Assembly: GCA_021789695.1 (NCBI GenBank)
Contig: JAJYJH010000018.1
Span: forward strand, 1 to 39,235
DNA length: 39,235 nucleotides
Reading direction: 5' to 3'
Source: a bacterium
Lineage (GTDB): Bacteria; Elusimicrobiota; Elusimicrobia; Elusimicrobiales; UBA9959
Shown here: positions 14,972 through 38,807 of the stretch, piece by piece
How positions within the stretch are numbered: position 1 is the stretch's first letter
Layout of the letters: every line of letters begins with the position of its first letter
Program-made: the position numbers and the translations under genes
Notes under the pieces: model-generated
Seen by the model: the letters and a program-made list of their open reading frames with translations, nothing else
Database searches by the model: none
Told to the model about the DNA's origin: nothing

Positions 14972-14992
14972 GACCCTGACGGGTCACTTTTT
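14972..14992 (+). terminator. Short terminator after the radical SAM/DUF4130 operon
   Basis: GACCC and GGGTC (14972-14976 with 14981-14985) close a 4-nt loop, followed by AC and five T. It lies across the 3' end of the convergent coaD gene. Confidence 0.5.
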
Positions 14993-15466: not shown

Positions 15467-15529
15467 TTAAGGGCATTATACAAATTTCACTTCGAGACGG
15501 CGGCTGCGTCAAAGTTGTATCATTAGTGC

Positions 15530-22274: not shown

Positions 22275-23248
22275 TAATAATTTTTGAAAAAAACTCCGGC
22301 AGGGCAAGGCGGGACGAGGCGGCCAGCGCGGCGGAAAAGCTGCTGCCAGGGGCCGCGCTCAGGCGCCGCGGACAAAGGCTGGAACTGCGCACGCGGCACC
22401 CGGAGAAGCTGGCCGACGCCGCGCCCGCCCTGGAGAACCTGCCCGGAGTGGAGAAGGTCTCTTTTTCCGAATGCGAACTCAGTCCGCTGGCCTGCGCCGG
22501 AGGCGACAGGCGTTTCTCTAGCCCGCTGGATTTCAAGCGCGGGCCTGCGCTTATAGCCGGCCCTTGCGCCGTTGAGGACGAAGCCTCCTACCTCAGGGCC
22601 GCCGCGGAACTCAGGGAAGCGGGGGCCCACGCGCTGCGTGCCGCGATTTTCAAACCGCGCTCCTCCCCGTACGCCTTCCAGGGCATAGGCTGGCCCGGCC
22701 TGCGGATCATCGCGAAGGCGAAGAAGCTGACCGCCCTGCCGCTGGTCACCGAGGCCACGGACACGCGGCAGGTGGCGCGCCTGGCGGAGGTCTGCGACGT
22801 ACTGCAGATAGGCGCGCGCAATATGCGCAACTACGAACTGCTCAAGGAGGCGGCCGGCTCCGGCAGGGCCGTGCTGCTCAAGCGGGCCATGCACGCCACG
22901 CTGCGCGAATGGTTGCTATCCGCGGAATACCTGCTCAGCCGCGGCGCCAGAAAAATAATTTTATGCGAACGCGGGGACTCCGCCGGGGGTCCGGTCATGG
23001 ATATGGGCCTGATCCGGAAAGCCCGGAAGATAACAGGCCTCCCGGTCATAGCGGACCCCAGCCACGCCTCCGGGAACAGGCGACTGGCGGCGGAGCTGGC
23101 CAGCCGGGCCCTGCGTGCCGGGGCGGACGGCCTGATGATGGAGGCCAGCCCTGACCCGCTCTCGGCCAAAGTGGACGGCAGGCAGACAGTAAGCGTGGAA
23201 ACCTTCCGGACCATAGCGGCGGCCGCATGCGCAAGAAACCGCCGATAA
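22271..23248 (+). CDS. aroF: 3-deoxy-7-phosphoheptulonate (DAHP) synthase, type I-beta
   Basis: Condenses PEP with erythrose-4-phosphate, the first step of the shikimate pathway. 325 residues: an N-terminal ferredoxin-like regulatory domain (about 1-70, as in the Thermotoga-type enzyme, where Tyr binding gives feedback inhibition), then the barrel with IAGPCAVED, FKPRSSPYAFQGIG, LLKRAMHATLREWL, ILCERGDS, ADPSHASG and the C-terminal MMEASPDPLSAKVDGRQTV. CERG is followed by DSAGG, not the more usual RTF-type stretch. The last 22 bp overlap aroE. Confidence 0.93.
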   Translation: MIIIFEKNSGRARRDEAASAAEKLLPGAALRRRGQRLELRTRHPEKLADAAPALENLPGVEKVSFSECELSPLACAGGDRRFSSPLDFKRGPALIAGPCAVEDEASYLRAAAELREAGAHALRAAIFKPRSSPYAFQGIGWPGLRIIAKAKKLTALPLVTEATDTRQVARLAEVCDVLQIGARNMRNYELLKEAAGSGRAVLLKRAMHATLREWLLSAEYLLSRGARKIILCERGDSAGGPVMDMGLIRKARKITGLPVIADPSHASGNRRLAAELASRALRAGADGLMMEASPDPLSAKVDGRQTVSVETFRTIAAAACARNRR

Positions 23249-24075
23249 AGGCCGGCCTAATAGGCCGGCCGCTCTCCAGATCACTCTCCCCCGTCCTGTT
23301 CGGGATCTTCGCCGACCTAGCCGGGGAAGAGATCGTCTACGAGCTACGCGAAACCGAGCCTCGCGACCTGCGGACCGCCATAGAGACGGCGCGCATGGAA
23401 GGCTGGCGCGGCTTCAACGTGACCATCCCCTACAAGGGCGACGTCTGCGCCCTGCTTGACCTGGCCGACCCGGCCGCAAGGGCGGCGGGCGCCGTCAACG
23501 CCGTGCGCTTCGGCAGGGCCGGGCTGGAAGGCTACAACACCGACGCGCGGGCCCTGCTGCAGATCATGGGGGAGACCGGTTTCGCCGCGGCCGGGAAAAG
23601 CGCGATAATCTACGGCTCAGGCGGGGCCGCGGCCTCCGCGGGCTGGGCCCTGGGCCGCTCGTCGGCGGCCTCGGTCGTTTTCAGCGCGCGCAACACGGAG
23701 AACGCCTCAGCCCTGGCGCGCAGGCTGACAGAGTTCTTTCCCGCCACCTCTTTCTCTGCCGCGCCGTTCGGGCGGCCGGCCGCTCCCCCCGACATCCTGG
23801 TCAACGCCACGCCGCTGGGCATGTATCAGCCGGGCCGCCCACCGTGCGAACCGGCGCGCGGCATGTTCTGCGCCGACCTGGCCTACGCGCCAGCCGGTAC
23901 CGAACTCGCCGCCGCGGCCGCGGCTGCCGGCGCCGTCTCCGCGGACGGCCTGGCGCTGCTGGTGCGCCAGGCGGCGCTTAGCCTCAGGTTCTGGACGGGT
24001 CTGCCCGCCGGCGATATTGTAGAATTTAGCATTGAAGCCGACAGGCTTTTCAGGAAGAAACTTAAAGGGGAATAA
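23227..24075 (+). CDS. aroE: Shikimate dehydrogenase
   Basis: NADPH-dependent reduction of 3-dehydroshikimate. 282 residues. Shikimate-binding Ser residues lie in SRSLSPVLF, the catalytic Lys in FNVTIPYKGD and the catalytic Asp in GYNTDARAL. The Rossmann loop is YGSGGAAAS, and NATPLGM and the C-terminal Gln (LLVRQAALS) are present. The start overlaps the DAHP synthase gene by 22 bp, and the stop is 1 bp before the aroC ATG. Confidence 0.95.
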   Translation: MRKKPPIKAGLIGRPLSRSLSPVLFGIFADLAGEEIVYELRETEPRDLRTAIETARMEGWRGFNVTIPYKGDVCALLDLADPAARAAGAVNAVRFGRAGLEGYNTDARALLQIMGETGFAAAGKSAIIYGSGGAAASAGWALGRSSAASVVFSARNTENASALARRLTEFFPATSFSAAPFGRPAAPPDILVNATPLGMYQPGRPPCEPARGMFCADLAYAPAGTELAAAAAAAGAVSADGLALLVRQAALSLRFWTGLPAGDIVEFSIEADRLFRKKLKGE

Positions 24076-24076
24076 A

Positions 24077-25099
24077 ATGCTGCGCTACCTGACGGCCGGA
24101 GAATCGCACGGTGAATATCTTTCCGGCGTACTGGAGGGCTTCCCCTCCGGAGTAAGGATCGCGCCGGAGTACATCTCCGCCCAGCTCAGGCGGCGCCGCT
24201 TGGCACCCGGTCGCAGCGCCCGCCAGGCGATAGAAACCGACCGCTGCGAGGTACTCTCAGGCCTGGGCGGCGGGGCCACTACCGGCGCGCCGATAGCTCT
24301 GCTGATAAAGAACTCGGGGCGCCGGCCGCCTACACCCTCCAGCCTGCCGCGGCCCGGCCACGCAGACCTGCCGGGTATGCTAAAATACGGCACGCTCAAC
24401 GCCGTGCAGGTGCGCGAGCGCGCCAGTGCCAGGGAGACGGCGATGCGCGTGGCGCTCGGCTCCTTCGCCCTGCGCCTGCTGGAACTCCTGGAGGTAAAGA
24501 TCCGCTCACGTGTGGTTTCGCTGGGTTCCCGGCCGGTGACGACGGCGAAGGACGCCGCCGACCGCCTGCTACGCGCCCGCCGCGACGGCGACACGCTGGG
24601 CGGGGTTTTTGAGGTGACGGTGGAGAACCTCCCCGCCGGCCTCGGCGGGTTCGCGCAGTGGGATCACAGGCTCGGCTCGCGCCTGGGAGCATCCCTGCTC
24701 GGCATAAACGGGGTAAAGGGCTTCGAGGTGGGCGGCGGGTTCGCGCTGGCCGCCCTAGGCGGCCGGGCCGCCTCCGGAGACCTCTCACTTTCCGGAGGCC
24801 TCGACGCAGGCATGACCAACGGCCGCGCGCTCACGCTGCGCTGCGCCGTGAAGCCGGTGCCGGGCCTGCCCGGCGGCGCGCTTTCCACCGACCTCAGGAC
24901 CTTCAGAAAGGAACTTTCCGTCTCGAAGACCTCGGATACCTCGGCGGTCTTCGCGGCGGCCGTGATCGGCGAGCACGCCGCGGCGCTGGAGCTGGCTTCG
25001 GCGCTGCTGGAGAAATTCGGAGGGGATTCGCTGCCGGAACTCCGGCGGCGCTTGGACGAATGGCGGAAGGACACCGGAAAGATACTGCGCAGGCTCTGA
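24077..25099 (+). CDS. aroC: Chorismate synthase
   Basis: FMN-dependent trans-elimination of phosphate from EPSP, giving chorismate. 340 residues from ATG 24077, supported by AAAGGGG six bases upstream. The family signatures GESHGEYLSGVLEGFPSGV, the RPGHADLPG block with the conserved His and RASARETAMRVALG are present. The C-terminal DTSAVFAAAVIGEHAAALELA is also typical. In-frame codons upstream (from 24032) belong to the aroE overlap and are not needed. Confidence 0.95.
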   Translation: MLRYLTAGESHGEYLSGVLEGFPSGVRIAPEYISAQLRRRRLAPGRSARQAIETDRCEVLSGLGGGATTGAPIALLIKNSGRRPPTPSSLPRPGHADLPGMLKYGTLNAVQVRERASARETAMRVALGSFALRLLELLEVKIRSRVVSLGSRPVTTAKDAADRLLRARRDGDTLGGVFEVTVENLPAGLGGFAQWDHRLGSRLGASLLGINGVKGFEVGGGFALAALGGRAASGDLSLSGGLDAGMTNGRALTLRCAVKPVPGLPGGALSTDLRTFRKELSVSKTSDTSAVFAAAVIGEHAAALELASALLEKFGGDSLPELRRRLDEWRKDTGKILRRL

Positions 25100-25620
25100 G
25101 GAACGTCTACCTCACGGGCTTCATGTGCGCCGGCAAGACGCTGGCCGGCCGGGCGCTGGCCAGGGTTCTGGGGCGCCGTTTCAGCGACACGGACCTGATC
25201 GTGAGGAAGACCTCCAGTCTGACCGCCGGACGGCACATCAGGAGCAAAGGCCTCGCCGCCTTCCGCCGCGCCGAAGCCGCGGCGGTCAGAGAACTGGCCA
25301 AGAAGAGAGGCGGAGTCGCGGCGCTGGGCGGAGGCTATTATCCCTCCGGCAGGCGCGCGCCGCTGCTACGGGCCACCGGCGTTACGGTCTTCCTCTACTG
25401 TCCGTGGCCGGAGCTGGAGCGCAGACTCAAAAAGGCCCGCGCCGCGCGCCCGCTGCTGGCCGGTCCCTGGGCGAAAGCCGCCGCACGCGCCAGGAAGCTT
25501 TACGCCGCGCGCCTGCCTTACTACCGGCGCGCCGACCTTACCGTTAACACCTCCGGCCTAACGCCGGAGAGCACCGCCGCCAGGATAGCGGCGCTGCTGA
25601 AGGAGCGGGCTCTGGCATGA
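25060..25620 (+). CDS. aroK: Shikimate kinase
   Basis: Phosphorylates shikimate with ATP. Walker A is GFMCAGKT, the Asp pair is SDTDLIV, the shikimate-binding Arg is in AAFRRAEAAAV, then ALGGGYYPS and the lid RPLLAG; all are intact. The start is ambiguous: ATG 25060 (chosen; 186 residues, 40-bp overlap with aroC) adds an untypical 16-residue leader. CTG 25096, overlapping the aroC TGA, would begin just before the first beta strand (NVYLTGF). No GTG or TTG is available near the expected position. Confidence 0.88.
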   Translation: MAEGHRKDTAQALRNVYLTGFMCAGKTLAGRALARVLGRRFSDTDLIVRKTSSLTAGRHIRSKGLAAFRRAEAAAVRELAKKRGGVAALGGGYYPSGRRAPLLRATGVTVFLYCPWPELERRLKKARAARPLLAGPWAKAAARARKLYAARLPYYRRADLTVNTSGLTPESTAARIAALLKERALA

Positions 25621-26705
25621 AGACGTTTAGTTACACTCTCAGAACATCCGGGAGCATGAAAGCCGCGCTGGGCCGCGGCATGGAGGACCTGCCGCCGCGC
25701 TTCCCGGAACTATTCCGCCCGGCCGACAGGATCTGCCTGGTCACCGCCTCCGACGCCCCACCAAGCCTGAGGGCTAGGGCTCTGGCGCTCTTTCCGGAGG
25801 GGGCGCGGCCGCACTCATATTTCTGGCTGCCTCCTTCGGAAAAGGCCAAGACGCTCGAGCAGGCGGGATTGCTGTGCGCCTTCCTCTTCGAGGAAGGCTT
25901 TTCGCGGGATTCCCTGCTGATAGCCGCCGGCGGAGGCGCGGTCACGGACCTGGCGGGCTTCGCGGCCTCCATCTATATGCGCGGCATCCGCTGGATCAGC
26001 GTGCCGACCACCTTCCTCGCCCAGATAGACGCGGGGCTGGGCGGCAAAACGGCCGTGAACCTGGCCGGCGCCAAGAACATAGCGGGCTCCTTCCACCAGC
26101 CGGCGCTGGCCGTCTGCGACACCGCTTTCCTGGACTCGCTGCCGCACGCCGAGCTGCGCAGCGGGGCCGGCGAGCTGGTCAAGTATGCGATGATAGGCCC
26201 AGCGGAGCTCTACCGGACAGTCAAAGAACATCTCTCCGGCACGCTGGCAGGGGACAAGGCCGCGCTTACCGCCTGCGTCAGCGCCTGCGCCGCCTACAAG
26301 CTGAAGCTGGTGGCCGCCGACGAACGCGACCAGCGCGGGGTGCGCGAGGCTCTCAACTTCGGCCACACGGCCGGGCACGCCTTCGAGGCCATGGCCGGCG
26401 GACGCCTGCCGCACGGCGAGGCCGTCGCGCGCGGCATACGCTTTGCGCTGATAATATCGCGCGAGGCCGGCATCCTCTCCCGCGCCGATTTCGGCCGGCT
26501 GAACGCGCTGGTGGACGCGCTGCGCCTGAAGGAGGCGCCGGTGCGCAGGGACTTCAGGCGATTCCTTTCGCTGGTCTCGCGCGATAAAAAAGCGCGCGGC
26601 GCGGCCAACCGGTTCGTGCTGATTGCCGGGCAAGGGCGCCTCTCCCCGGCCGAGGGCCTGGACGCCCCGCTGCTTAAAAAAGCCTTCGAGGGCGCCCTGA
26701 AATGA
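25617..26705 (+). CDS. aroB: 3-dehydroquinate synthase
   Basis: Zn- and NAD-dependent cyclisation of DAHP to 3-dehydroquinate. 362 residues. The NAD loop AAGGGAVTDLAGFAASIYMRG, the core VPTTFLAQIDAGLGGKTAVN, the catalytic/zinc segment with GAGELVKYAMIG, and NFGHTAGHAFEAM with zinc His residues are all present. PHGEAVARGI supplies another ligand. It overlaps aroK by 4 nt (ATGA) and aroQ by 4 nt. Confidence 0.96.
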   Translation: MKTFSYTLRTSGSMKAALGRGMEDLPPRFPELFRPADRICLVTASDAPPSLRARALALFPEGARPHSYFWLPPSEKAKTLEQAGLLCAFLFEEGFSRDSLLIAAGGGAVTDLAGFAASIYMRGIRWISVPTTFLAQIDAGLGGKTAVNLAGAKNIAGSFHQPALAVCDTAFLDSLPHAELRSGAGELVKYAMIGPAELYRTVKEHLSGTLAGDKAALTACVSACAAYKLKLVAADERDQRGVREALNFGHTAGHAFEAMAGGRLPHGEAVARGIRFALIISREAGILSRADFGRLNALVDALRLKEAPVRRDFRRFLSLVSRDKKARGAANRFVLIAGQGRLSPAEGLDAPLLKKAFEGALK

Positions 26706-27142
26706 ACGTGCTGGTGATACACGGCCCAAATCTCCACCTGCTCGGCCGGCGCAGGCCGGAAATCTACGGCGCCGCCACGCTGTCGCGCCTGAACGCCGGA
26801 ATAAAAAAGCGGGCCTCCGAGCTTGGCCTGAAGGTCAGGATCTTCCAGAGCAATTCCGAGGGCCGCATCATAGACCTGCTCACCGCCAACGCCGCCTGGG
26901 CGGACGCGCTGGTCATCAACCCGGCCGCCTACACCCACTACAGTTACGCCATCCGCGACGCGATAGAGGCGCTGGAACTGCCCGCCCTGGAAGTGCACCT
27001 GAGCGACATCTCCCGCCGCGAGCCATTCCGCCGCGTCTCGGTCATAAAACCGGTCTGCCTGGCGCAGTTCAAGGGCGAGGGGCCGCACTCCTACTTCAAG
27101 GCGCTGGATTACTGCCTTTCCATCCAACCCCGGGAAAGATGA
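26702..27142 (+). CDS. aroQ: 3-dehydroquinate dehydratase, type II
   Basis: Dehydrates 3-dehydroquinate to 3-dehydroshikimate as a dodecameric flavodoxin-like enzyme. The 146-residue length is standard. GPNLHLLGRRRPEIYG opens the protein with the active-site Arg and Tyr; FQSNSEGRIIDLL, INPAAYTHYSYAIRDAI and VHLSDISRREPFR complete the site. The usual Asn of the HLSN motif is Asp here. It overlaps aroB and aroA by 4 nt each. Confidence 0.95.
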   Translation: MNVLVIHGPNLHLLGRRRPEIYGAATLSRLNAGIKKRASELGLKVRIFQSNSEGRIIDLLTANAAWADALVINPAAYTHYSYAIRDAIEALELPALEVHLSDISRREPFRRVSVIKPVCLAQFKGEGPHSYFKALDYCLSIQPRER

Positions 27143-28371
27143 GCCTTTATATCCCGCCTCCGGACAAATCGATCACGCTGCGCGCTCTGCTGCTGGGCGC
27201 CGTAGCCGACGGCACGTCGCGCGTGGAGAACCCGCTGTTCTGCGCCGACACCGAGGCCGCGCTGGGCTGCCTGAAGGCGTTGGGCGTTCGGTTCTGCCGC
27301 GACGGGAACGCTCTGCTGATAGAGGGGCGCGGGCTGAACGGCCTTAAAAGGCCGGCAGGGCCGCTGGACACAGGCGAATCCGCGGCTCTGGCGCGTATGC
27401 TAGCGGGCCTGATGGCCGGACAGGCCTTCCCGTCCTTTATAACCGGGCGCGGAACGCTGCTGAAAAGGCCTATGGCCCCCACGGAGGAAGCGCTTAAAAA
27501 ACTTGGCGTCAGAATAGGTTCAGCCGGGGGGTTGCTGCCCCTCTCGCTCAGGCCCGCCAGGCTCAGGGGAGCCAGGATAGCGGGCACCTCCAGCGCCCAG
27601 GTTAAGTCGGCGCTGCTGCTGGCCGGCCTCTACGCGCGCGGCCCCGTGGAGATAAAAGAGAAGCGCCCCACGCGCGACCACACCGAGCGGCTGCTGGCGC
27701 TGATGGGCTCGCGGCTGACCAACACCCCCGGCAACGTGCGGCTGGAACCAGGCCCACTGACGGCCAGGCCCCTGGCCGTGCCAGGAGACATCTCCGCGGC
27801 GGCGCCGTTCATCGCCGCCGCGCTGCTCTCCGGCGTCACGCTCAGGGTGGCCGGCTGCGGCCTCAATCCGCTGCGGCTGGGCTTCGTGGACGCGCTGCGC
27901 AGGATGGGCGCCAAGATAGAGCTGCGCCCCGGAGCCGCGTTCCCGGAGCCGGCAGGCGAAGTCCTGGTCTTTCCGTCCAAGCTCAAGGGCGTCAGGGTGG
28001 CTCCAGCAGAAGTACCGTCAATGATAGACGAGGTCCCGCTGCTGGCCGTGCTGGCGGCAGGCGCCTCAGGCGTCACGGTCATCGGCGGCCTGCGGGCCCT
28101 GAGGACCAAGGAGTCAGACCGCGTGAAAAGCACGCTCGCCTTGCTGGCCGCCCTGGGCGCCAGGGCTTCCTTCCGGGGCGGCGCTCTCATGGTGGCCGGC
28201 GCCAAGAGATTTTCCGCGCTTAGCCCGGCGCTGACTTTCAGCGACCACCGCATAGCCATGGCCGCGGCCGCGGCCTCTGCGGCCTGCCCCGGGCTGGAAA
28301 TAAAGGACCCGGGCTGCGTGGGCAAATCGTACCCGGGTTTCTGGGAAGACTTCAAAAAGGTCTTCGGCTAG
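27139..28371 (+). CDS. aroA: 5-enolpyruvylshikimate-3-phosphate synthase
   Basis: Transfers enolpyruvyl from PEP to shikimate-3-phosphate. 410 residues. The N-terminus PPPDKSITLRALLLGAVADG carries the catalytic Lys. DTGESAALARMLAGL, the conserved GTSSAQVKSALLLAGLYA, DEVPLLAVLA, LRTKESDR and the C-terminal SDHRIAMAAAAAS are all recognisable. The protein starts very close to its first substrate-binding loop, so it lacks the short leader strand seen in E. coli AroA. As last gene of the operon it ends 10 bp before the convergent PfpI-like gene. Confidence 0.95.
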   Translation: MSLYIPPPDKSITLRALLLGAVADGTSRVENPLFCADTEAALGCLKALGVRFCRDGNALLIEGRGLNGLKRPAGPLDTGESAALARMLAGLMAGQAFPSFITGRGTLLKRPMAPTEEALKKLGVRIGSAGGLLPLSLRPARLRGARIAGTSSAQVKSALLLAGLYARGPVEIKEKRPTRDHTERLLALMGSRLTNTPGNVRLEPGPLTARPLAVPGDISAAAPFIAAALLSGVTLRVAGCGLNPLRLGFVDALRRMGAKIELRPGAAFPEPAGEVLVFPSKLKGVRVAPAEVPSMIDEVPLLAVLAAGASGVTVIGGLRALRTKESDRVKSTLALLAALGARASFRGGALMVAGAKRFSALSPALTFSDHRIAMAAAAASAACPGLEIKDPGCVGKSYPGFWEDFKKVFG

Positions 28372-28381
28372 CCCCGCCCCC

Positions 28382-28888
28382 TCATTTCAGCGCCTCCACG
28401 AGAGCTTCACCGTACTTCCTCGCCGGAGCGGGTCCGCTGGCGGTTATCAGTTTTCCGTCCGTTTCAAGGTCTTTGCCCGTGTATTCCCCGCCGGCTCTCC
28501 TCACCTCTTCCGCGCCGTCGGGAAAGCACGTCACCCTCCGCCCCTTCAGCAGCCCCGCGTGCGCCAGCACCACCGGCGAGATGCAGATGGAACCTATCAG
28601 CTTGCCGGCTTCCATCGCCCCGCGGAAAAGTTCGTGTATTTCAGGTTTGTCCAGATGCTCCAGCGCTCCCGGCCCGCCCACCAGCGTCAGCGCGTCGTAA
28701 TCGGCCGGGGCTATCTCGTTCACTGTCCTGTCGACCTGCGCCGCGGCCCCGAACCTGCCGCGCGCCTCGCCTTTAGAAGTGGAAACCGTGGTCACTTTGT
28801 GGCCGGCCGCCTCCAATACCTTCTTCGGCTCCAGATATTCCTCGTCGCGGAAACCATGGAACGCTATGAACATAGCTATTCTTTTCAT
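28382..28888 (-). CDS. DJ-1/PfpI family protein
   Basis: 168 residues of the glutamine-amidotransferase-like DJ-1/PfpI family, which includes proteases, glyoxalases and deglycases. The nucleophile Cys is in GSICISPVVLAHAGLLKGRR, and the preceding acid lies in the LVGGPGALEHL region. No signal peptide. The gene overlaps the end of the histidine kinase gene by 4 nt and thus closes the RR-TonB-SBP-HK operon. This is an unexpected location for such an enzyme and suggests a stress-linked role, which is inference. Confidence 0.88.
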   Translation of the reverse strand: MKRIAMFIAFHGFRDEEYLEPKKVLEAAGHKVTTVSTSKGEARGRFGAAAQVDRTVNEIAPADYDALTLVGGPGALEHLDKPEIHELFRGAMEAGKLIGSICISPVVLAHAGLLKGRRVTCFPDGAEEVRRAGGEYTGKDLETDGKLITASGPAPARKYGEALVEALK

Positions 28889-30690
28889 GACGCTTCCTCC
28901 GCTTTCGCGGCTTTATCCGGTATCTCGAAGAAGAAAACAGACCCTTCGCCAGGTCTGGACTCGAACCATATATCGCCGCCATACTGTTCCACGATCTTTT
29001 TGCAAGCGGCCAGGCCTATGCCCGAGCCTTCCACCGACGCTCCGTGCAGCCGCCCGAACAATTTGAAGAGCTTGTCCGAGTAGCGGGGATCTATCCCCTC
29101 GCCGTTGTCCGACACGCTGAAGACCCAGGCTGCCCCGCGCCTTGACGCCTCCACCCTTACGGCGGGGCGGCGCCCGGCCCGGAACTTCAGGGCATTGCTC
29201 ACCAGGTTCTGCAGCAGGCGCTCGATATGCCCCCTGTCCGCGGTAAGCACCGGCAGTTCGCCGCTGGTCACGGTGCCGCCGGCCGAGGAGAGGGAATCCT
29301 TCATCCCCTCCAGCACCGCCGTCAGCGCCGCGGAAGAATCTACTCGTTCCAGGCGCAGCTTGGAATTTATGCGCGAGTAGCCCAGCAGGTCCCTCACCAG
29401 CGCGCGCATACGGCCGAGAGACGCCGTGATGAAGGCCATCTCCTTTTCAGCCTCCCCCCCAAGCATCTGTTTGTAGCGGCTTTCCAACAACTGGATATAG
29501 TTGGAGATGGTGCGCAGCGGCTCCTGCAGATCGTGAGAGGCGATAAAGGCGAAGCGCTGCAGTTCCTCGTTGGAACGCGACAGCTCGGCCTCGTATTTCC
29601 TGCGCAGGGTTATGTCGCGCATCAGCACGACTATGCCGGAGCGCGCGCCTTCCGTGTCCTTTATCCAGGAGGCGGACAGTTGCACGGGGAGAGGCTCCGG
29701 AGCCAGCAGCGTGGTCTCGTAGTCGCGCACCTCGCCGGCTTTCTCCAAGGCCCCCAGACACCTCCCGGGCCAGGCCCCGTCGCCAGACAACAGCGGTCTC
29801 AAGTCCAGCCCTTCCAGTTCCGCCGAGCTCTTGCGCAGCATGGCCTGCGCGGCCTTGTTGGAGCGGGTGATGCGGCACTTCGGGTCCGTAACGAACAGCA
29901 CGTCCACGATATTGTCCACCACCGCGTCCACGTAGTTCTTGGACACTATGGTCCCGGCCAGCGTGCGGGACATCTCGTTGAAGCTGCGCGCCAGGTCGCC
30001 GAACTCGTCGCTCGAGGAGACCGGGATGACCGCGCCGTATTCGCCCATCTTTATGCGGCGGGTGCCCTCGGTGAGCAGGCGTACCGGGCGCAAGGCCAGG
30101 CCGGTGAACAGCGAGGCCGCCAGCAGGATGGCGGAGTAAACCGCCACCAGTATTAGCGTTATCTTGTCGGAGATATTCTTTTCAGCCGCCAGAATCCCGC
30201 CGGCCGGAACCGCCGCGATGACGGTGCCGAGCTTGGCAGCCTTGCCGGAGCCGAGTTGGCTCAGCTCCTCCGGATCGCTGGGCACCGGCTCGAAGACCGG
30301 GACCGAGACGTACATGATTCCGCCGTGCACCGTGCTGTCGGTAACGTATTCCGCCCCGTTCAGCAGCGGTTGCTGAAAAGCGGGCAGCGGCAGGCCCTTC
30401 TGCGCCACGTCAGTATGGGCCAGGATGCTCCCGTCCATCGAGACGAAAAAGGCCTCCGAGGCGTTGAGGGCCAGCTTGAGTGAGTACAGCACCGGCAGCA
30501 TCCGCGATTCCTTCCCCGAGGCGAAGACCGGACTGTTAGGGTAGAGCGCCTGACCGGCGGCCGCCCTGGCCTCCTCGGCGGCCCTTTTCTGCAGGGTGCT
30601 GCGCACCGCCCTGTCCGCCAGGTAGTTTATCAGCAGCCCGCTCAGCAGGAGCAGCGGCAGCAGCAGCAGGAGCTTCGTCCTTACCCTCAT
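28885..30690 (-). CDS. Membrane sensor histidine kinase (HAMP-PAS-HisKA-HATPase)
   Basis: 601 residues from ATG 30690, which overlaps the upstream stop by 4 nt; the longer frame start at 30732 would lie inside that gene. A transmembrane helix (about 6-24) is followed by an extracytoplasmic sensor of about 170 residues, a second helix near 185-205, HAMP, a PAS domain (about 245-365), the HisKA domain with His386 in SHDLQEPLRT, and an HATPase with N box (NLVSNALKF), G1 (DNGEGID) and G2 (GSGIGLAACKKI). It lacks a fused receiver; the partner is probably the single-domain regulator at the head of the same operon. Confidence 0.9.
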   Translation of the reverse strand: MRVRTKLLLLLPLLLLSGLLINYLADRAVRSTLQKRAAEEARAAAGQALYPNSPVFASGKESRMLPVLYSLKLALNASEAFFVSMDGSILAHTDVAQKGLPLPAFQQPLLNGAEYVTDSTVHGGIMYVSVPVFEPVPSDPEELSQLGSGKAAKLGTVIAAVPAGGILAAEKNISDKITLILVAVYSAILLAASLFTGLALRPVRLLTEGTRRIKMGEYGAVIPVSSSDEFGDLARSFNEMSRTLAGTIVSKNYVDAVVDNIVDVLFVTDPKCRITRSNKAAQAMLRKSSAELEGLDLRPLLSGDGAWPGRCLGALEKAGEVRDYETTLLAPEPLPVQLSASWIKDTEGARSGIVVLMRDITLRRKYEAELSRSNEELQRFAFIASHDLQEPLRTISNYIQLLESRYKQMLGGEAEKEMAFITASLGRMRALVRDLLGYSRINSKLRLERVDSSAALTAVLEGMKDSLSSAGGTVTSGELPVLTADRGHIERLLQNLVSNALKFRAGRRPAVRVEASRRGAAWVFSVSDNGEGIDPRYSDKLFKLFGRLHGASVEGSGIGLAACKKIVEQYGGDIWFESRPGEGSVFFFEIPDKAAKAEEAS

Positions 30691-31553
30691 TTCCCTTTCC
30701 CCTCCGGGGCCAGGACCAGCGGCAGGCCGCACTTCCTGATTGCATCCGCGTTGATGGTGAGGACGGCCTCGGCCGGAAAGATCAGGCCAGGCAGTTTCCC
30801 TCCGGCCAAAACGGTCTTCAGCGCGCTCGCTACCGCCACGCCGGTCTGCCTGTAGCCGGGCGCAAAGGCGGCTGCCGCGCCGTAGTTGGTCAACCCGCAG
30901 GAAGGGGCATAGAACGGGATCTTGTTGGAGCAGGAAAACTCTCCCAGCACGTTCAGCGAAGTCATGTCTATCAGCGCCGGGTCAGGCAACAGCCAGAAGG
31001 CGTCTATCCGCCCCAACAGCGAGCGCAGCACCGACGGAAAATCCGTAGGAGAGGAGAGCTGGACCCTGAGCATCTCGATGCCGGCGGCCTTGGCCGCGGC
31101 GCCCAGATTGTCCAGGTAGAAATCGAAATTGCCGGGGCTGTAGAACACGGCCAGTCTCTTGAGCCCCGGCTGCAGTCTCAGGTAGGTGGCGACGGCACTA
31201 CCCGGTTCAGGCAGCGGGCTTATGAGGACAAAGTCCGGACCGGGAAGATCTGGGGTATAGGTAGGAGCCAGCGCGTAGATCACCGTGACGCCTTTCGGAT
31301 ATTCCAGGGCCGCGGCCCTGGTGCCGAAGGCGGCCACAACTCTCAGGCTGCCCGGCAGCTTCGGATCCCGGTTCTCGGAAAGATCGAAAGGGACCACCGG
31401 CCGCCCGTAGGCCTTCTGAAAAGCGAGGTAGGTGTCGAAATAGAGACCGGAACCCTTGGCCAGCACAGCCCCGGCGAGCTGAGCCCGCGCCGGCAGGGCT
31501 TGACAGGCCAGCAGGACAGCCAGAAACGCCAGTTTTTGCGGTGCCTTCGCCAT
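30687..31553 (-). CDS. Periplasmic ABC-type substrate-binding protein (TrpX-like family)
   Basis: 288 residues from ATG 31553 with a signal peptide (about 1-24, LAFLAVLLACQALPARAQ). The fold resembles the ABC_sub_bind family: alternating blocks such as FGTRAAALEYPKGVTVIYA, RLAVFYSPGNFDFY, AAAKAAGIEMLRVQ, DAFWLLPDPALI and SCGLTNYGAAAAFAPGYRQ. No permease or ATPase gene is nearby, so it may serve as a ligand presenter for the co-encoded kinase rather than for transport; that is inference. It starts 16 bp after the TonB receptor stop. Confidence 0.8.
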   Translation of the reverse strand: MAKAPQKLAFLAVLLACQALPARAQLAGAVLAKGSGLYFDTYLAFQKAYGRPVVPFDLSENRDPKLPGSLRVVAAFGTRAAALEYPKGVTVIYALAPTYTPDLPGPDFVLISPLPEPGSAVATYLRLQPGLKRLAVFYSPGNFDFYLDNLGAAAKAAGIEMLRVQLSSPTDFPSVLRSLLGRIDAFWLLPDPALIDMTSLNVLGEFSCSNKIPFYAPSCGLTNYGAAAAFAPGYRQTGVAVASALKTVLAGGKLPGLIFPAEAVLTINADAIRKCGLPLVLAPEGKGK

Positions 31554-31569
31554 AGTAAGCTGCCGCGCC

Positions 31570-33525
31570 CTAAAACCTGTATGCCGCGCGCGTCCTGAAC
31601 TCCCTGGAAAGGGCTGGCAGCGGGGAATGCCCCCCGTCGTACGGCTGTATGTAACTGTAAGGCGCGTTGAATATGTTGTACACGCCAAAGCCCAGCTCAA
31701 GCCGTCCGCGCATCAGGCTCTTCCGCGCGAGATAGATGTTCACCAGCGCCACGTCACCCAACCCGGTTACGGTATTGGCGGCGGTATAGCCCCGGCGGCC
31801 GGCGTAGTAGACGGCGGACGGGCTGAGTATCAGGTCACTGGACACGTTGAAGGAGGCGTTGAGGGCAGCCTTGCCGCGCGCGAAAGCCAGCAGCGTTCCC
31901 GAGACGCCGGAGTTGTAGAAGTCCACCTTGTTGTCGTAGGCCACGTAGTACGAATAGGAAAGGTTCGCGTAGCCCCAGTTCTTTTTTACTTTGGCGGACA
32001 ACTCGAAGCCGCGCGTGCCGGTGTGGCCGTAGTTGCCGTAATGCTGACCGGCCCCGTCGGTGTAGAAGACTATAGGGTCGTCTATGCGCATGTCGAAGAC
32101 GTCCGCGGTCAGGTAGACGTCACCGCAGGCCATATAGCCGGTCTCCAGTTCTGTCGTTTTTGACTTTTCCGGCTTGAGCTGCGGATTGGCGGCCAGGTTG
32201 TCTATGCCGGGGGAGCGGAACCCCATGCCGTAAATGGCCTTGAAATGTAACTTATCCATGGCCTTGGTCCAGGCTATGCGCGGCGAAAAAGCCGAGTTAA
32301 AATCCTGGTTGTCGTCGTAACGGGCCCCGGCCGACAGAGTGCCGAAGGAGAACTCCTCCATGCCCTCCATGAAGACGGCCGAGTTCGCATAGCTGACCGA
32401 CCTCCGGCCGTTGGCAAAAAGTATCAGCGGCGCAGCGGTGGAGGGAGCGGCGTCGTAGGACATCAGTCTGGCGCTGTCCACCGAGGCTTCCGCGCCGGCC
32501 GAAAGTCTGGCGCGCGGGGAGGCCGCGTAGACGGCGTTGACAGTGGCCTTCAGGTACCTGCTGGTCTTGTCACGGAAGTAGTACTCCGGATCGAAGCCCC
32601 AGTACGGCTTCTCGTAGGTGGCGTTCAGCGCCGCGCTGACGGACAGCAGGTCCGAGGGGCGGAAGTCCCTCCTGAGCTCCGCGAAGTATGAGTCGAAATC
32701 GCGATCCATCGGCCGGGGCAGTATGGTGTCTGTCCAGCCGTCCCGCTCCCGCGTGCGGTACAAGTCCGCTATCACCCGGGCCTTCCACCCGTCCTTAAAA
32801 AAACCCAGGTTGAGACTGCGCGTCTTAAGCTGCGAGGCGTCCTCCATGGAGTAGGAGCCGCCGTTGAAGTCGGTATAGCGCCGGTCCCCCTTGTCCGCGT
32901 CGGCCAGGTAGAGCTGCACGGTAAGCCTGCCGCCGGGGCCAGACCTGCCATAAGCGAAATTAAACGAACCGTCCTGGGCGCCTTTGGCCGTGCGCCCGTA
33001 GGCTGCGGTAGCCCGCTCCCCGTTTATCTCTTTGGCTTTGAGCGTGGTGATCTTGATTACGCCCAGCTCAGCGCTGCCGCCGTAGATCACGGAGCCGGGA
33101 CCGCGTATCACCTCTATCTTCTCTATCTCCTCCACCGGAATGCGCTCCAACTGGGCCGTGCCCATGAAGTCCTCGTTGTAACGCTGGCCGTCCACCAGCA
33201 CCAGCACCTTCCCCTCTTGAGCCCAGTTGCCGCGCACGCCGAGGCCGATGTTCCCCTCCACATCCACGCCAAAATCCAACCCAGGCACCTGACTCAGCAC
33301 GTCGAACACGTTCCTGGCCCCGGAGTCCAGTATCTCGTCGCGGGTAAGCACCGTGACTATGGCCGGCGCTTCTCGCCCGGCGAAATCCAGCCGGGAGGAG
33401 GCGTCGGAATGGATGTTGATCACGTCCCGCAGAGAGGCTTTCTCGAAATTGAAGTAATCCAGGTCCTGAGCCCTGGCCGCCGGCGGCAGCAGCAGCGCCG
33501 CCAGCAGAAGGACAGTCCGTTTCAT
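31570..33525 (-). CDS. TonB-dependent outer-membrane receptor
   Basis: 651 residues. A signal peptide (1-19) precedes the plug domain (about 45-165: APAIVTVLTRDEI, GARNVFDVLSQVPG, VLVDGQRYNEDF, IEKIEVIRGPGSVIYG), then a beta-barrel of about 480 residues ending in the outer-membrane signature YRF. The ligand (siderophore, cobalamin, metal or oligosaccharide) cannot be told; the barrel looks cobalamin- or siderophore-receptor-like. It overlaps the response regulator upstream by 4 nt. No TonB/ExbBD genes are in the window. Confidence 0.92.
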   Translation of the reverse strand: MKRTVLLLAALLLPPAARAQDLDYFNFEKASLRDVINIHSDASSRLDFAGREAPAIVTVLTRDEILDSGARNVFDVLSQVPGLDFGVDVEGNIGLGVRGNWAQEGKVLVLVDGQRYNEDFMGTAQLERIPVEEIEKIEVIRGPGSVIYGGSAELGVIKITTLKAKEINGERATAAYGRTAKGAQDGSFNFAYGRSGPGGRLTVQLYLADADKGDRRYTDFNGGSYSMEDASQLKTRSLNLGFFKDGWKARVIADLYRTRERDGWTDTILPRPMDRDFDSYFAELRRDFRPSDLLSVSAALNATYEKPYWGFDPEYYFRDKTSRYLKATVNAVYAASPRARLSAGAEASVDSARLMSYDAAPSTAAPLILFANGRRSVSYANSAVFMEGMEEFSFGTLSAGARYDDNQDFNSAFSPRIAWTKAMDKLHFKAIYGMGFRSPGIDNLAANPQLKPEKSKTTELETGYMACGDVYLTADVFDMRIDDPIVFYTDGAGQHYGNYGHTGTRGFELSAKVKKNWGYANLSYSYYVAYDNKVDFYNSGVSGTLLAFARGKAALNASFNVSSDLILSPSAVYYAGRRGYTAANTVTGLGDVALVNIYLARKSLMRGRLELGFGVYNIFNAPYSYIQPYDGGHSPLPALSREFRTRAAYRF

Positions 33526-33995
33526 TTCCTGCCCGGGCCCCTTTTCCGCGTTTTAGCGACGGGGCTATCGCGCCGGGAAAGGCTGGCCACGGAGAACCAG
33601 AACCGCTCTATGGCGGAGACCGCGTCCAGGAAGGAGGAGAACTCCACCGGCTTGACCACGTAGCAATTGGCCCCTTCGGCGTAACAGCGGGAGATCTCGG
33701 TCTCAGCCTCGGAAGAGGTCAGTATTACCACAGGCAACGAGCGAAGCTCCGGGTCGGTCTTCAGCTCGCGCAGCACCTCCTCCCCGGAGAGCTTCGGCAG
33801 GTTCAGGTCCAACAGTAGCAGGTCCGGCCTGGTAACATCCCCGTACCGGCCTTCGCGGCGCAGGTATTGAAGGGCCTTCTCACCGTCATCTACGACGGCC
33901 AGGTCTATGGAAAGCCTTGAGGAGGCCAGCGCCTGGCGGGTGAGCTCCGCGTCGCCGGGATTGTCCTCCACCAGCAGAACGTATATATCCTTCAC
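33522..33995 (-). CDS. Single-domain response regulator (CheY/Rcp1-like)
   Basis: 157 residues from GTG 33995, chosen because GGAG lies eight bases upstream; the frame extends to 34046 without a better start. The receiver domain has the acidic pair in LLVEDNPGDAE, the phospho-acceptor Asp in DLLLLDLNLPKLSG, the switch Thr/Ser in VILTSSEAE and Lys in YVVKPVEF. There is no output domain, only a basic tail. It opens the operon with the TonB receptor, SBP and kinase. TATAAT on the minus strand at 34038-34043 is the likely -10. Confidence 0.92.
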   Translation of the reverse strand: MKDIYVLLVEDNPGDAELTRQALASSRLSIDLAVVDDGEKALQYLRREGRYGDVTRPDLLLLDLNLPKLSGEEVLRELKTDPELRSLPVVILTSSEAETEISRCYAEGANCYVVKPVEFSSFLDAVSAIERFWFSVASLSRRDSPVAKTRKRGPGRK

Positions 33996-34118
33996 TTCAC
34001 ACTCTCCTGAGCGCCACCCCACAACGTCATTTTTTGAATTATACAATTTATACCGCCTTCTTCACGACGGAAAAGCGGTGTATTGAAGGCAGCGTCCCGG
34101 TTATGCGAAAATATCGGG

Positions 34119-35171
34119 ATGCCTGTGAAAAAGAAGGGCAAGAAGAACGCCGACGACCTCTACCGCATGGTCTTCGAGGAGGCGCGCGACTCCATGCTGG
34201 TGCTGGAACTCCCGCAGCAGGGAACGCCGCGCATACTGGACGCCAACCCGGCCGCGCTGGCCCTGCACGGCTTCGGCCGGCGCAAGCTCGCAGGCAAGCC
34301 GGTGAGCGTTCTCGGAGCCTCGCTTAGCCGCGGGCGCTTCCGCCCCGGCTCCAGCGACGTTTTCGAGGTGAAGCACGACAGGCCCGGAGGCAGGCCACTG
34401 GTCACCGAGGTCACCGCGCGCAATGTCAGGTCCAGGTCCGGCCATTTCGGCATTCTCATAGAAAGGGACGTCACCTGGCGCCGCCGGCTGGAGGAGGAGG
34501 CGCGGGAGCTCTCCTCCCGCCTGCTGCAGGAGCGGGAAGAGGAAAAAAAGGGGCTGGCCGCCGGCATACACGATTCCGTCGGCGCTATGCAGGTGGGCCT
34601 CTCCGCCGAGCTCCTGCTGCTGGAGGACTGTGTGCGCCGCGGCGACGAAAAAATGGCGCTGGCCGGGCTGCGGCGCGCCAGAAAGCTGCTGAAGGCCTCG
34701 ACCGCGGGGCTCAAGAAAGCCTGCGTCGAAGCCTGGCCCGCCTCGCTCGCAGTCTCTGGCCTCGGCGCGGCCTTGTCCGGGCTGCTGGCCTCCTTCACCA
34801 AGCGCTCGAGAATAGCAGCGGAGGTCTCGCTCTCCCTCCCCGATGCCGACGTCCCGGAAAGCCCGGCGACCATAGTGCTCTACCGGCTGGCCCAAGAAGC
34901 TCTCGCGAACGCGGAACGCCACTCCGGGGCGGGTCTGGTGAAGTTCAGTGCCGGGACGGAAGGGGGGTGGTTGACGCTGGAGATCCAGGACGACGGACGC
35001 GGCTTCGACACCGTGAAGGCCGCCGCGAACGGAAATAGCCTTGGCCTGAAAATAATGGAGGACGCAACCAACTCGGCCGGAGGCCACCTCTCGGTCTACT
35101 CCGCGCCCGGCAGGGGCACCCGGGTAAGGGCGCAGCTTCCCATGAACTGCGGCCGGGGGACCGCTCGATGA
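34119..35171 (+). CDS. NarX/UhpB-type soluble histidine kinase with PAS domain
   Basis: 350 residues from ATG 34119; a TTG at 34083 would add 12 residues. An N-terminal PAS domain (about 15-125: ANPAALALHGFGRRKLAGK) is followed by a coiled linker, HisKA_3 dimerisation with the phospho-acceptor His in AAGIHDSVGAMQVGL (about residue 151), and an HATPase with LAQEALANAERHSGA, DDGRGFD and NSLGLKIMEDATNSAGG. No membrane segment, so it senses a cytoplasmic signal. The stop overlaps the ATG of the LuxR-type regulator (ATGA), its cognate partner. Confidence 0.9.
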   Translation: MPVKKKGKKNADDLYRMVFEEARDSMLVLELPQQGTPRILDANPAALALHGFGRRKLAGKPVSVLGASLSRGRFRPGSSDVFEVKHDRPGGRPLVTEVTARNVRSRSGHFGILIERDVTWRRRLEEEARELSSRLLQEREEEKKGLAAGIHDSVGAMQVGLSAELLLLEDCVRRGDEKMALAGLRRARKLLKASTAGLKKACVEAWPASLAVSGLGAALSGLLASFTKRSRIAAEVSLSLPDADVPESPATIVLYRLAQEALANAERHSGAGLVKFSAGTEGGWLTLEIQDDGRGFDTVKAAANGNSLGLKIMEDATNSAGGHLSVYSAPGRGTRVRAQLPMNCGRGTAR

Positions 35172-35800
35172 AACGCAGGATAAAAGTCCACATAGCCGAC
35201 GACCATCCGGTGGTCGTGGAAGGGCTGAAGGCCCTGATAAAGCGCACCGCGCCGGACATTGTGATCACCGGCGCCGCCGCCGACGGAAGAGCGGCCCTGG
35301 GCCTGGCCCGCCGGAACCCCGCCGACGTCTACGTATATGACATTTCCATGCCGGCGCCAAACGGCCTGGAGGCCATGGCCGAGCTGCTGAAGCTGGCGCC
35401 AGGCAGCAAGGTGATAATTCTGAGCATGCACGACGACCCCGCCACGGTGGAAAAAGCCATCCGCGCCGGGGCCAGCGGCTACCTTGTGAAGGAGAGCGCC
35501 GCCGAGGAGATAGTAACCGCGCTGCGCGCCGTCTGCCGCGGCTCCCGCTACCTGAGCCCGTCCATAAAGCCGCGCGGCCGGGACAGACACCGGGGCTCAC
35601 CCCCGGAGCTGACCGAAAAAGAGAAGATCATCGTAAAGCTTACCGCGGCCGGGCTGAAAGACAAGGAGATAGCCACCAGTCTTAAGCTCTCACCGCACAC
35701 GGTCCACGTACACAGGCGGAACATCTTCCAGAAGCTCGACCTGCATAAACAGACCGAGCTGGTGCGCTACGCCATAAGGGAAGGCCTGGCCAATCCCTGA
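35168..35800 (+). CDS. NarL/FixJ-family response regulator
   Basis: 210 residues. The receiver domain (1-120) has the acidic pair in VHIADDHPVVVEG, the phospho-acceptor in VYVYDISMPAPNGLEA, the switch Ser in IILSMHDD and Lys in YLVKESAAEE. The LuxR-type helix-turn-helix (about 145-205) contains LTEKEKIIVKLTAAGLKDKE and LSPHTVHVHRRNIFQKL. It is the transcription-factor output for the kinase directly upstream. Its targets are unknown. Confidence 0.94.
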   Translation: MKRRIKVHIADDHPVVVEGLKALIKRTAPDIVITGAAADGRAALGLARRNPADVYVYDISMPAPNGLEAMAELLKLAPGSKVIILSMHDDPATVEKAIRAGASGYLVKESAAEEIVTALRAVCRGSRYLSPSIKPRGRDRHRGSPPELTEKEKIIVKLTAAGLKDKEIATSLKLSPHTVHVHRRNIFQKLDLHKQTELVRYAIREGLANP

Positions 35801-37150: not shown

Positions 37151-37222
37151 GCCGGCGTAGCTCAGCGGTAGAGCAACCGCCTTGTAAGCGGTAGGTCACC
37201 GGTTCAATCCCGGTCGCCGGCT
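37151..37222 (+). tRNA. tRNA-Thr (anticodon TGT)
   Basis: A complete cloverleaf: acceptor GCCGGCG with CGCCGGC (37215-37221), D-arm GCTC...GAGC, anticodon stem ACCGC/GCGGT closing loop CTTGTAA (anticodon TGT, reading ACA) and T-arm ACCGG TTCAATC CCGGT. The discriminator is T at 37222 and CCA is not encoded. It stands 26 bp upstream of tRNA-Glu. Confidence 0.95.
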
Positions 37223-37248: not shown

Positions 37249-37325
37249 GGCCCCTTCGTCTAGCGGCCTAGGACGCTGCCCTCTCAAGGCAGAGATCACG
37301 GGTTCGAATCCCGTAGGGGCCGCCA
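37249..37325 (+). tRNA. tRNA-Glu (anticodon CTC), CCA encoded; integration site
   Basis: Acceptor GGCCCCT with AGGGGCC (37315-37321), discriminator G, then an encoded CCA (37323-37325). Anticodon stem CTGCC/GGCAG with loop CTCTCAA (anticodon CTC, reading GAG); T-arm ACGGG TTCGAAT CCCGT. The 3' end is the boundary of the inverted-repeat arm, and the recombinase stop codon lies inside this gene on the other strand. This is the usual sign of integration at a tRNA 3' end. Confidence 0.96.
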
Positions 37326-38807
37326 AATTTTCTCCCGAGAAAATTTGGCACTTGAAAACTCCGCTAGTTCCCGCAGTTCCCGCGTTTTCTCCGCCGGAAA
37401 ATTAAATTTTAAATTTATTTTTTTCCCGCCTATAATTAAGTTCGAACCGATATTTTTCAATTTCTGCAGGTTATCGGCCGGACTTCCAGAGACCGCGGAC
37501 TCTCCGACGTCAACACAGAGCTTGTAGAACCGTTTCAGCGGTTCGAACCGATTTGCCCCCTGCCGCGCAAAAGCTGCGAGTTTGTTTTCTATTTCCTTTT
37601 TGTCGTTGACCAATTGGGCCTTCTTGGTAACGTACTCGGACTGACTTATCGCGCCTTGCAGTACCAGGTCCAGCAACTGGCCCAATTGGTCTGTAAGGAT
37701 AACCAATTTATCTTGCAGATTTTGGGCGGCCTCTTCCCCGGCCTGGGCCGCCTTTAATTCTTCCTTACTGATGTTATCAAGAGCATCGGCGGCCAGGGCC
37801 GGGGGTAAGGAAACTCCTTTTAATAAGTCGCGTACCTGTTTATCCACATCTTCTTCCCGCACAAAACGCTCGTCACAGGGGCCTTTGCGCTTGGTGCAGC
37901 GCATGTAGTTGTGGCCCTTTTGAGTCTCTGTAGTTATGAAGCAACCGCAAGTGGCGCAACGGAAAACGCCGCGGTAGACATAAGGCTTTAAGGTCTTTGT
38001 ATGTGTTTTAGACTTGCGGTTAAGCACCTCCTGGCACTTATCAAATAGAGCCTTGGAGATCAGCGGCTTATGTTTTGCCTCATAGACTTCGCCATTGTAG
38101 CGCATAACCCCGTAATAGATAGGATTACGGAGCATATAGTGGCAATTAGAAACAGACAACGGCTTGTTGAACTTGCGCCCTGTGAGGCCGGCTGAATTAA
38201 TGCGGTCCCGGATTTCAGTTATGGGATACCTGCCGGTTGCGTACAGCTCAAAGGCTTTCTTTATGAGCGGACCGCGCTCCTTGTCTATGTGTATCGTGTG
38301 GGTGGCCCGGTCGTTTACATAGCCCATCGGCGCCCAGGAAGGCCAGATGCCGTTGCGCAGCTTTTGCCTGATACCGCGCCGCACGTTCTCCGAGAGGTTG
38401 TCTACATAATACTTGGACTGCCCGAAAGCGATAGACAGCATGAACTTCCCCTGCGGCGTAGGGTCGAACCAGAAGGTCGGGAACTTGAGCTCAAGGATCT
38501 TTCCGGTGTCCGCTAGGTAGATTATGCGCCCGCCGTCTATTGAATTACGCGCTAGGCGGTCCGGGTGCCAGGCTACTATGCCGTGAGCCGCGCCCTGCTC
38601 GATCTGCGCCATCATGTCGTTGAAGATCTCGCGGCCCGGTTCCTTGGCGGTTTTGCTTTCAATGAACTCGCGGGCTATGGTGAGACCGTTCTTTTTGGCG
38701 TAGTCGCGCAGTTCAGTGAGCTGTGCCTCTATGGACAGAATTTGCCGGTCAGGCTCGTCCGTGGACTTGCGGGCATAAAGGAAATACCGCATTGTAAGCT
38801 TCTCCAT
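37296..38807 (-). CDS. Large serine recombinase (integrase), C-terminus encoded inside tRNA-Glu
   Basis: 503 residues. Resolvase catalytic domain (about 7-150) with nucleophile Ser15 in YARKSTDEPD and HPDRLARN; recombinase domain (about 155-260, PMGYVNDR, MLRNPIYYGVMRY); zinc ribbon with Cys at about 284, 287, 304 and 311; then a coiled-coil region (about 335-430). GGGGAGG lies seven bases before the ATG. The last eight residues (PLRDSNP and the Arg before) read antisense through tRNA-Glu. The preceding residues are encoded in the left arm of a 107-bp inverted repeat. Its base and codon use looks AT-richer than the neighbours, consistent with transfer. It should insert, excise or invert DNA at short att sites. 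Confidence 0.95.
   Translation of the reverse strand: MEKLTMRYFLYARKSTDEPDRQILSIEAQLTELRDYAKKNGLTIAREFIESKTAKEPGREIFNDMMAQIEQGAAHGIVAWHPDRLARNSIDGGRIIYLADTGKILELKFPTFWFDPTPQGKFMLSIAFGQSKYYVDNLSENVRRGIRQKLRNGIWPSWAPMGYVNDRATHTIHIDKERGPLIKKAFELYATGRYPITEIRDRINSAGLTGRKFNKPLSVSNCHYMLRNPIYYGVMRYNGEVYEAKHKPLISKALFDKCQEVLNRKSKTHTKTLKPYVYRGVFRCATCGCFITTETQKGHNYMRCTKRKGPCDERFVREEDVDKQVRDLLKGVSLPPALAADALDNISKEELKAAQAGEEAAQNLQDKLVILTDQLGQLLDLVLQGAISQSEYVTKKAQLVNDKKEIENKLAAFARQGANRFEPLKRFYKLCVDVGESAVSGSPADNLQKLKNIGSNLIIGGKKINLKFNFPAEKTRELRELAEFSSAKFSREKIWRPLRDSNP
37320..37426. repeat. Left arm of a perfect 107-bp inverted repeat
   Basis: Identical base for base to the reverse complement of 38979-39085, checked along the full length. 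It begins in the last acceptor bases of tRNA-Glu, includes the encoded CCA, and covers the 3' end of the recombinase reading frame. It contains a 28-nt palindrome at 37322-37349 and two tandem copies of AGTTCCCGC. Confidence 0.95.
37322..37349. other. Candidate serine-recombinase att core (palindrome, CC centre)
   Basis: Thirteen-bp perfect half-sites (GCCAAATTTTCTC and its complement) flank a central CC. Short dyads around a 2-bp crossover dinucleotide are the known layout of serine recombinase sites. The mirror copy is at 39056-39083 with central GG, that is, in inverted orientation. The att role is inference. Confidence 0.45.

Follow-up and report, generated by a model that had tools for sequence, protein, structure and literature searches.

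Gene content and organization of the locus

Genes for a TonB-dependent outer-membrane receptor (TBDT), a periplasmic binding protein (SBP), a sensor histidine kinase (HK), and a single-domain receiver form part of a minus-strand operon in an Elusimicrobiota genome (UBA9959; GCA_021789695.1), which we analyzed within a 39,235-nt stretch of contig JAJYJH010000018.1 (the window). The genes of the operon are as follows, with positions given in the window.

33522..33995, minus strand: single-domain receiver, Rcp1-like; 157 aa, GTG start; Pfam Response_reg, 73.5 bits
31570..33525, minus strand: TBDT; 651 aa; Pfam Plug and TonB_dep_Rec_b-barrel
30687..31553, minus strand: SBP of family PF04392, TrpX-like; 288 aa; Pfam ABC_sub_bind, 38.0 bits
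28885..30690, minus strand: sensor HK; 601 aa, ATG start; transmembrane segment (TM)-Cache-TM-HAMP-PAS-HisKA-HATPase_c
28382..28888, minus strand: DJ-1/PfpI protein; 168 aa; Pfam DJ-1_PfpI

Open reading frame (ORF) coordinates and Pfam searches placed all five genes where the initial annotation of this DNA had put them, with 4-nt overlaps between receiver and TBDT, SBP and HK, and HK and DJ-1 and a 16-bp gap between TBDT and SBP. The best start of the kinase is the ATG at 30690. The description of the operon as a five-gene unit stands for four conserved genes, to which the DJ-1 gene is a local, lineage-specific tail: among all loci searched, it is present only in the window and in one close relative (L035 and L077, which are one contig and were counted as a single relative).

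Recurrence of the cassette

A scan of a species-genome collection yielded 61 SBP loci, 53 from Elusimicrobiota (including 4 recorded only as "bacterium") and 8 from other phyla; the window brings the Elusimicrobiota set to 54. The SBP occurs in 26 of 61 genomes searched, and all 26 belong to the genus of the host genome. Neighboring genes were called with in-house hidden Markov models (HMMs) trained on these same loci, and the best SBP per locus was tallied; several loci share one genome, and related genomes are non-independent. One locus, L171, stands outside the tally because the in-house HMM gave no SBP match there.

Of the 51 Elusimicrobiota loci with enough upstream sequence, 47 have a TBDT immediately before the SBP in the same orientation, and a kinase lies directly downstream in 31 of the 51 with enough downstream sequence. 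Where both flanks were available (n = 48), 28 loci have TBDT and kinase, 17 a TBDT only, 1 a kinase only, and 2 (L127 and L129) neither. Of the eight loci of other phyla, all that extend far enough downstream (7/7) have a kinase after the SBP, and 3/6 have a TBDT ahead of it; the TBDT of L132 is located beyond the kinase and that of L135 on the opposite strand. Complete sets were also found in loci of Oryzomonas, Geobacteraceae, and Eisenbacteria; for Oryzomonas L131 and Eisenbacteria L133 all three genes were confirmed by Pfam, as were the SBPs of L132, L135, and L136. In Geobacter anodireducens SD-1, a plasmid encodes TBDT–SBP–HK–receiver, with all four genes annotated as "hypothetical protein," and its presence in a named strain makes the cassette experimentally testable.

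The initial annotation had called for a search for conserved co-occurrence of these families and had considered that the arrangement might be unique to this genome. Instead, receptor and kinase flank the SBP in more than half of the Elusimicrobiota loci with both flanks and again in other phyla, and this recurrence shows that the arrangement is not due to chance. It also makes highly improbable an account in which the genes serve ordinary nutrient-uptake regulation with no common ligand, receptor, SBP, and kinase having become adjacent through operon drift. The DJ-1 gene is a sign that unrelated genes do enter this operon, but the trio recurs in several phyla, and random neighbors would not yield 28/48.

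Three types of locus can be told apart in the genus. Type I, that of the window, consists of receiver–TBDT–SBP–kinase together with a divergent PAS kinase and a NarL-type regulator (n = 12: the window, L035 to L043, L182, and L191). Type II is TBDT–SBP–kinase–receiver, and type III is TBDT–SBP alone, with no similar genes downstream. The host genome encodes three PF04392 proteins and carries one locus of each type.

At two of the 17 kinase-less loci (L094 and L113), the TBDT–SBP pair opens a tandem array and the kinase comes further along. These tandems have the order TBDT–SBP–TBDT–SBP–kinase–receiver (L094, 4969-13023; L113, 1017-9121), in which two receptor/SBP pairs apparently share one kinase. 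Two further sets of loci, 40 (L168 to L207) and 20 (L208 to L227), were non-random, having been chosen partly by long frames or high scores. Two consecutive TBDT genes precede the SBP in L172 (7664-14433), L169, L170, and L179. Apparent TBDT–SBP or SBP–kinase fusions in L052, L121/L173, and L169 were rejected as high-GC open frames spanning neighboring genes.

Domain and fold analysis of the cassette proteins

The ABC_sub_bind score of the SBP exceeds the Pfam cutoff of 25.9 bits, and the alignment indicates a signal peptide without a conserved lipobox; the protein looks soluble and periplasmic. In the structural model (pLDDT, 94), the fold resembles those of tyrosine- and tryptophan-binding proteins, the closest being CD0873 (Z score, 21.8), TrpX with L-Trp (20.6), and Vibrio cholerae 3lkv (20.3). 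LuxP and XylFII (of the XylFII–LytS complex) appear lower in the SBP fold lists, which counts in favor of a sensory role, since these are the SBPs of two known SBP–kinase pairs. The single chain of 5ere matches the SBP model (E value, 3.3e-7), and its residues 353-505 match the model of the kinase sensor, so that one protein can combine a binding domain with a Cache domain. L171, from the same genus, encodes a protein of 1051 aa in which a PF04392-like domain is joined by TM, PAS, HisKA, and HATPase. The Elusimicrobiota loci L168, L176, L177, and L178 encode proteins of 800-900 aa in which an N-terminal PF04392 domain is followed by Cache domains with no kinase or cyclase; they were rejected as SBP–kinase fusions because only L171 carries a kinase domain, and they are possible candidates for periplasmic sensors.

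In the kinase, two hydrophobic segments bracket the periplasmic sensor domain, and the phospho-acceptor box at residue 385, SHDLQEP, is one that we take to resemble the box of Cph1. The sensor model (pLDDT, 90) has a Cache fold, with Z scores of 14.1 to the WalK model, 12.3 to 5ere, 11.1 to DctB, 10.9 to CitA, 10.5 to DcuS, and 8.7 to LuxQ; scores below about 13 are weak for long helices, and the named Cache proteins are concordant. The phosphorylation motifs of the system are intact. The receiver has the phospho-acceptor motif LLLDLNLP, its closest solved relatives being 5te9, RcpA (1k68; 4.4e-36), and Rcp1 (1i3c; 7.5e-30). Pfam finds Response_reg alone in this protein, without a DNA-binding domain.

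The TBDT consists of plug and barrel only, the plug starting at residue 51; the Pfam search found no N-terminal STN signaling domain, and FecA-type STN signaling is therefore unsupported. Solved relatives of the receptor are Cir and BtuB, and its best NCBIfam match is TonB-B12, far under the cutoff. Owing to the likeness to BtuB a cobalamin riboswitch was sought, and an Rfam search of the window gave just two tRNAs.

Absence of an ABC transporter partner

No gene for a permease or an ATPase of the ATP-binding cassette (ABC) type adjoins the operon, as had been noted from the window at the outset. The canonical PF04392 operon on a Pseudomonas aeruginosa plasmid carries a BPD_transp_2 permease and an annotated ATPase, which confirmed PF02653 as the right permease family; ABC_trans_CmpB (PF06541), tried as the partner permease, gave 0 matches and was judged to be the wrong family. 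The host genome, which is 95.67% complete, contains 0 BPD_transp_2 (PF02653) matches, the control being positive in 12/14 genomes. BPD_transp_2 is present in 10/32 genomes of the genus, but in only 6/26 of the SBP-bearing ones. None of the 30 ABC_tran places of the host genome is on the contig of the window, and on contig C4 a distance of 42 kb or more separates them from the host's two other SBPs. Within 5 kb of the SBP, an ABC ATPase was found in 0/54 Elusimicrobiota loci, 0/8 loci of other phyla, and 0/20 strong PF04392 loci; in a wider PF04392 sample, 1/39 loci has one, on the opposite strand. The regular expression used for the ABC ATPase was suspected of being too strict and was replaced by an HMM, which recovered 13/13 Pfam-positive training loci and led to the same conclusion. 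The initial annotation had raised, as a possible objection, a pairing of the binding protein with a distant permease/ATPase operon; the search of the host genome yielded no such permease operon.

A cassette without transport machinery suggests that it serves the sensing of an outside molecule rather than ABC import. In a contrary account, the SBP is a transport carrier that passes its load from the TBDT to an inner-membrane importer encoded elsewhere, while the kinase only regulates the operon and senses through its own Cache domain. The naming of the SBP family for ABC transport, the P. aeruginosa operon with its SBP, permease, and ATPase, and the two-gene TBDT–SBP loci without a kinase all speak for such a carrier. 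We nevertheless consider it quite unlikely, as BPD_transp_2 is absent from the host genome and from 20/26 SBP-bearing genomes of the genus, the 54 Elusimicrobiota SBPs have no ABC ATPase nearby, and a kinase follows the SBP in all seven assessable loci of other phyla.

A proposed three-component sensor extended by an outer-membrane receptor

We lean toward reading the locus as an SBP–kinase–receiver three-component sensor that is extended outward by a TonB-dependent receptor. The initial annotation had suggested a trans-envelope sensing chain in which the binding protein may deliver a ligand from the receptor to the kinase, and the order of the genes agrees with it. The TBDT would admit or concentrate an external ligand in the periplasm, where the TrpX-like SBP would capture it upon a presumed handover from the receptor. 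The loaded SBP may then dock on the Cache domain of the kinase, in the place of an ABC permease, and the kinase would pass phosphate to the Rcp1-like receiver. Output from the receiver would be indirect, through a further protein that may be the NarL-type regulator of the divergent pair.

To our knowledge, only a few routes lead from a TonB-dependent receptor to the cell, namely, FecA-type transducers and SusCD-linked sensors. In FecA-FecR-FecI cell-surface signaling, a TonB-dependent receptor is tied to inner-membrane signaling; here, in contrast, the receptor lacks an STN domain, and kinase and SBP occupy the place of the anti-sigma and sigma factors. Loci of SusC/D systems with hybrid two-component sensors likewise unite such a receptor with a partner that binds the ligand and with a phosphorelay. 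Here, however, the SBP looks soluble and periplasmic and unlike a lipoprotein lid on the cell surface, the kinase does not form one protein with the receiver, and there is no AraC output. The cassette shares its SBP family and fold with TrpXYZ-type PF04392 importers but differs from them in that no permease or ATPase partner was found, and its SBP scores 38 bits versus 439 for a canonical member. Cph1-Rcp1 has in common with it an Rcp1-like single-domain receiver, although here the kinase is a membrane protein that has its Cache sensor in the periplasm and, by Pfam, lacks a phytochrome (GAF/PHY) domain.

Closest in principle are the systems in which an SBP triggers a kinase. LuxP-LuxQ, XylFII-LytS, CuaD-CuaSR, and BctC-BctE all have a gene for an SBP of the periplasmic-binding fold beside the gene for a membrane kinase; LuxQ additionally resembles the present kinase in its Cache/PDC-type sensor, and chains of LuxP, LuxQ, and XylFII-LytS appear in the fold lists. 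About ten characterized cases of SBPs switching on kinases are mentioned in a passage of one article (PMC9602780), and passages of two others describe CuaD–CuaSR as a three-component system (PMC10384115) and the recognition of AI-2 by LuxQ via LuxP (PMC8534201). The present cassette differs in that its SBP belongs to PF04392, a TBDT is located upstream, and the receiver lacks an output domain. In the full-text literature searched (open-access PubMed Central only), no description of a TBDT–SBP–kinase cassette was found. The working principle of an SBP-triggered kinase is therefore known, and the variation lies in the receptor that joins it, in the use of a PF04392 protein, and in the missing transporter. 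If our reading is true, a receptor–SBP–kinase cassette without a permease constitutes another signaling route for TonB-dependent receptors and would account for orphan PF04392 binding proteins that are currently annotated as parts of ABC transporters.

Several observations weigh against this reading, which is weakest at the TBDT–SBP pairs that lack a kinase and at the putative ligand. The 17/48 loci in which TBDT and SBP lack an adjacent kinase imply that the pair must have a role without a local kinase. The PF04392 score of the L171 protein, 23.7 bits, is below the 25.9-bit cutoff, and the Cache domain of the kinase could bind a ligand on its own. Co-phylogeny was analyzed over the 29 cassettes whose TBDT, SBP, and kinase genes share a strand. 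The distance correlation of the SBP with the kinase sensor was 0.894 (0/999 permutations as high), a figure probably inflated by the split between types I and II. That with the catalytic part of the kinase was 0.891, leaving a partial SBP–sensor correlation of 0.269 once the catalytic part is given; since the catalytic part matches the sensor, joint inheritance is indicated, not contact. The correlation between SBP and TBDT was 0.333, a loose fit with an obligate handover.

On the SBP tree, the receptor class switches 6 times, versus 26.5 times when shuffled, with a minimum possible of 4; this count omits the single class-E receptor (L122), and six ungrouped rows of the table were uncounted. 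One of the alignments (A2) contains the window and 57 of 60 references, with L123, L127, and L129 omitted. Type-I SBPs are sister to type-III SBPs, while type-I receptors are nearest to the main type-II receptors. The few class changes, taken with the low SBP–TBDT correlation, indicate that receptor and SBP travel together in the short term and were re-paired deeper in the past.

These data bear on a second alternative, in which SBP and kinase sense a periplasmic ligand that arrives by any route and the TBDT is merely a co-transcribed uptake gene under the control of the system. It would fit the deep-level exchange of receptor lineages, as well as the SBP–HK pairs without a nearby TBDT that make up 10/36 of the wider sample with both flanks and occur also on a Methylomonas plasmid. 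This seems to us unlikely, however, given that kinase-less TBDT–SBP pairs are common and that receptor class tracks SBP clade, both of which point to a tie of receptor and SBP to each other.

Returning to the receptor-extended three-component sensor, we tentatively put forward a more general form of it, which we regard as doubtful. The cassette would be an exchangeable two-membrane relay, in which the TBDT would serve a two-component system as its port in the outer membrane and the SBP would be an adaptor replacing the STN/FecR contact. Receptor–SBP pairs would be swapped or stacked onto one kinase in several phyla, for signaling and not for nutrition.

Divergent kinase/regulator pair and promoter region

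The features on the other side of the receiver gene are as follows.

34038..34046, minus strand: promoter-like element of the operon, TTGTATAAT, from the alignment of type-I loci
34119..35171, plus strand: divergent cytosolic PAS histidine kinase; ATG at 34119 preferred over TTG at 34083
35168..35800, plus strand: NarL/LuxR-type DNA-binding response regulator; Pfam Response_reg and GerE; 4-nt overlap with the preceding kinase

The divergent pair (34119-35800), which the initial annotation did not mention, adjoins the cassette in 12/12 type-I loci. The kinase is nearest to NCBIfam MctS and the regulator to MctR, both below the cutoff. The earlier view of a chain that ends in a receiver without a DNA-binding domain is accurate for the operon itself but does not extend to the locus, where the DNA-binding NarL-type regulator is next to it; this kinase and regulator are the best candidate for the output in this lineage.

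Only a short interval separates the receiver from the divergent kinase, and in 12/12 type-I loci it contains TATAAT in the direction of the operon. In their alignment, the promoter-like element reads TTGTATAAT in 10/12 and TTATATAAT in 2/12, and a second conserved element in the same interval faces the divergent kinase. A longer receiver ORF would start at a TTG at 34046, which falls within the conserved TTGTATAAT element, making the GTG at 33995 the better start. The conserved intergenic elements support the treatment of operon and divergent pair as one regulated locus; binding of the NarL-type regulator to this interval does not follow from them. TTGTATAAT is present in 2 copies in the window versus 0.04 expected and may be a general promoter form of this organism; the other exact copy (15475-15483) is just upstream of a minus-strand ORF at 14984-15466.

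Neighboring genes

Shikimate genes identified from their translations (aroE, aroC, aroK, aroB, aroQ, and aroA) form a plus-strand run at 23227-28371, which stops 10 bp short of the convergent DJ-1 gene. These neighbors seemed to hint at an aromatic ligand, but among 40 loci the aroB and aroA probes matched L035, the close relative, alone, and we propose no ligand. Near the contig end, a large serine recombinase gene (37296-38807) overlaps at its 3' end a tRNA-Glu gene on the opposite strand. The two tRNAs of the window are located at 37151-37222 and 37249-37325, and together with the recombinase they resemble the boundary of an element that has inserted itself at a tRNA gene.

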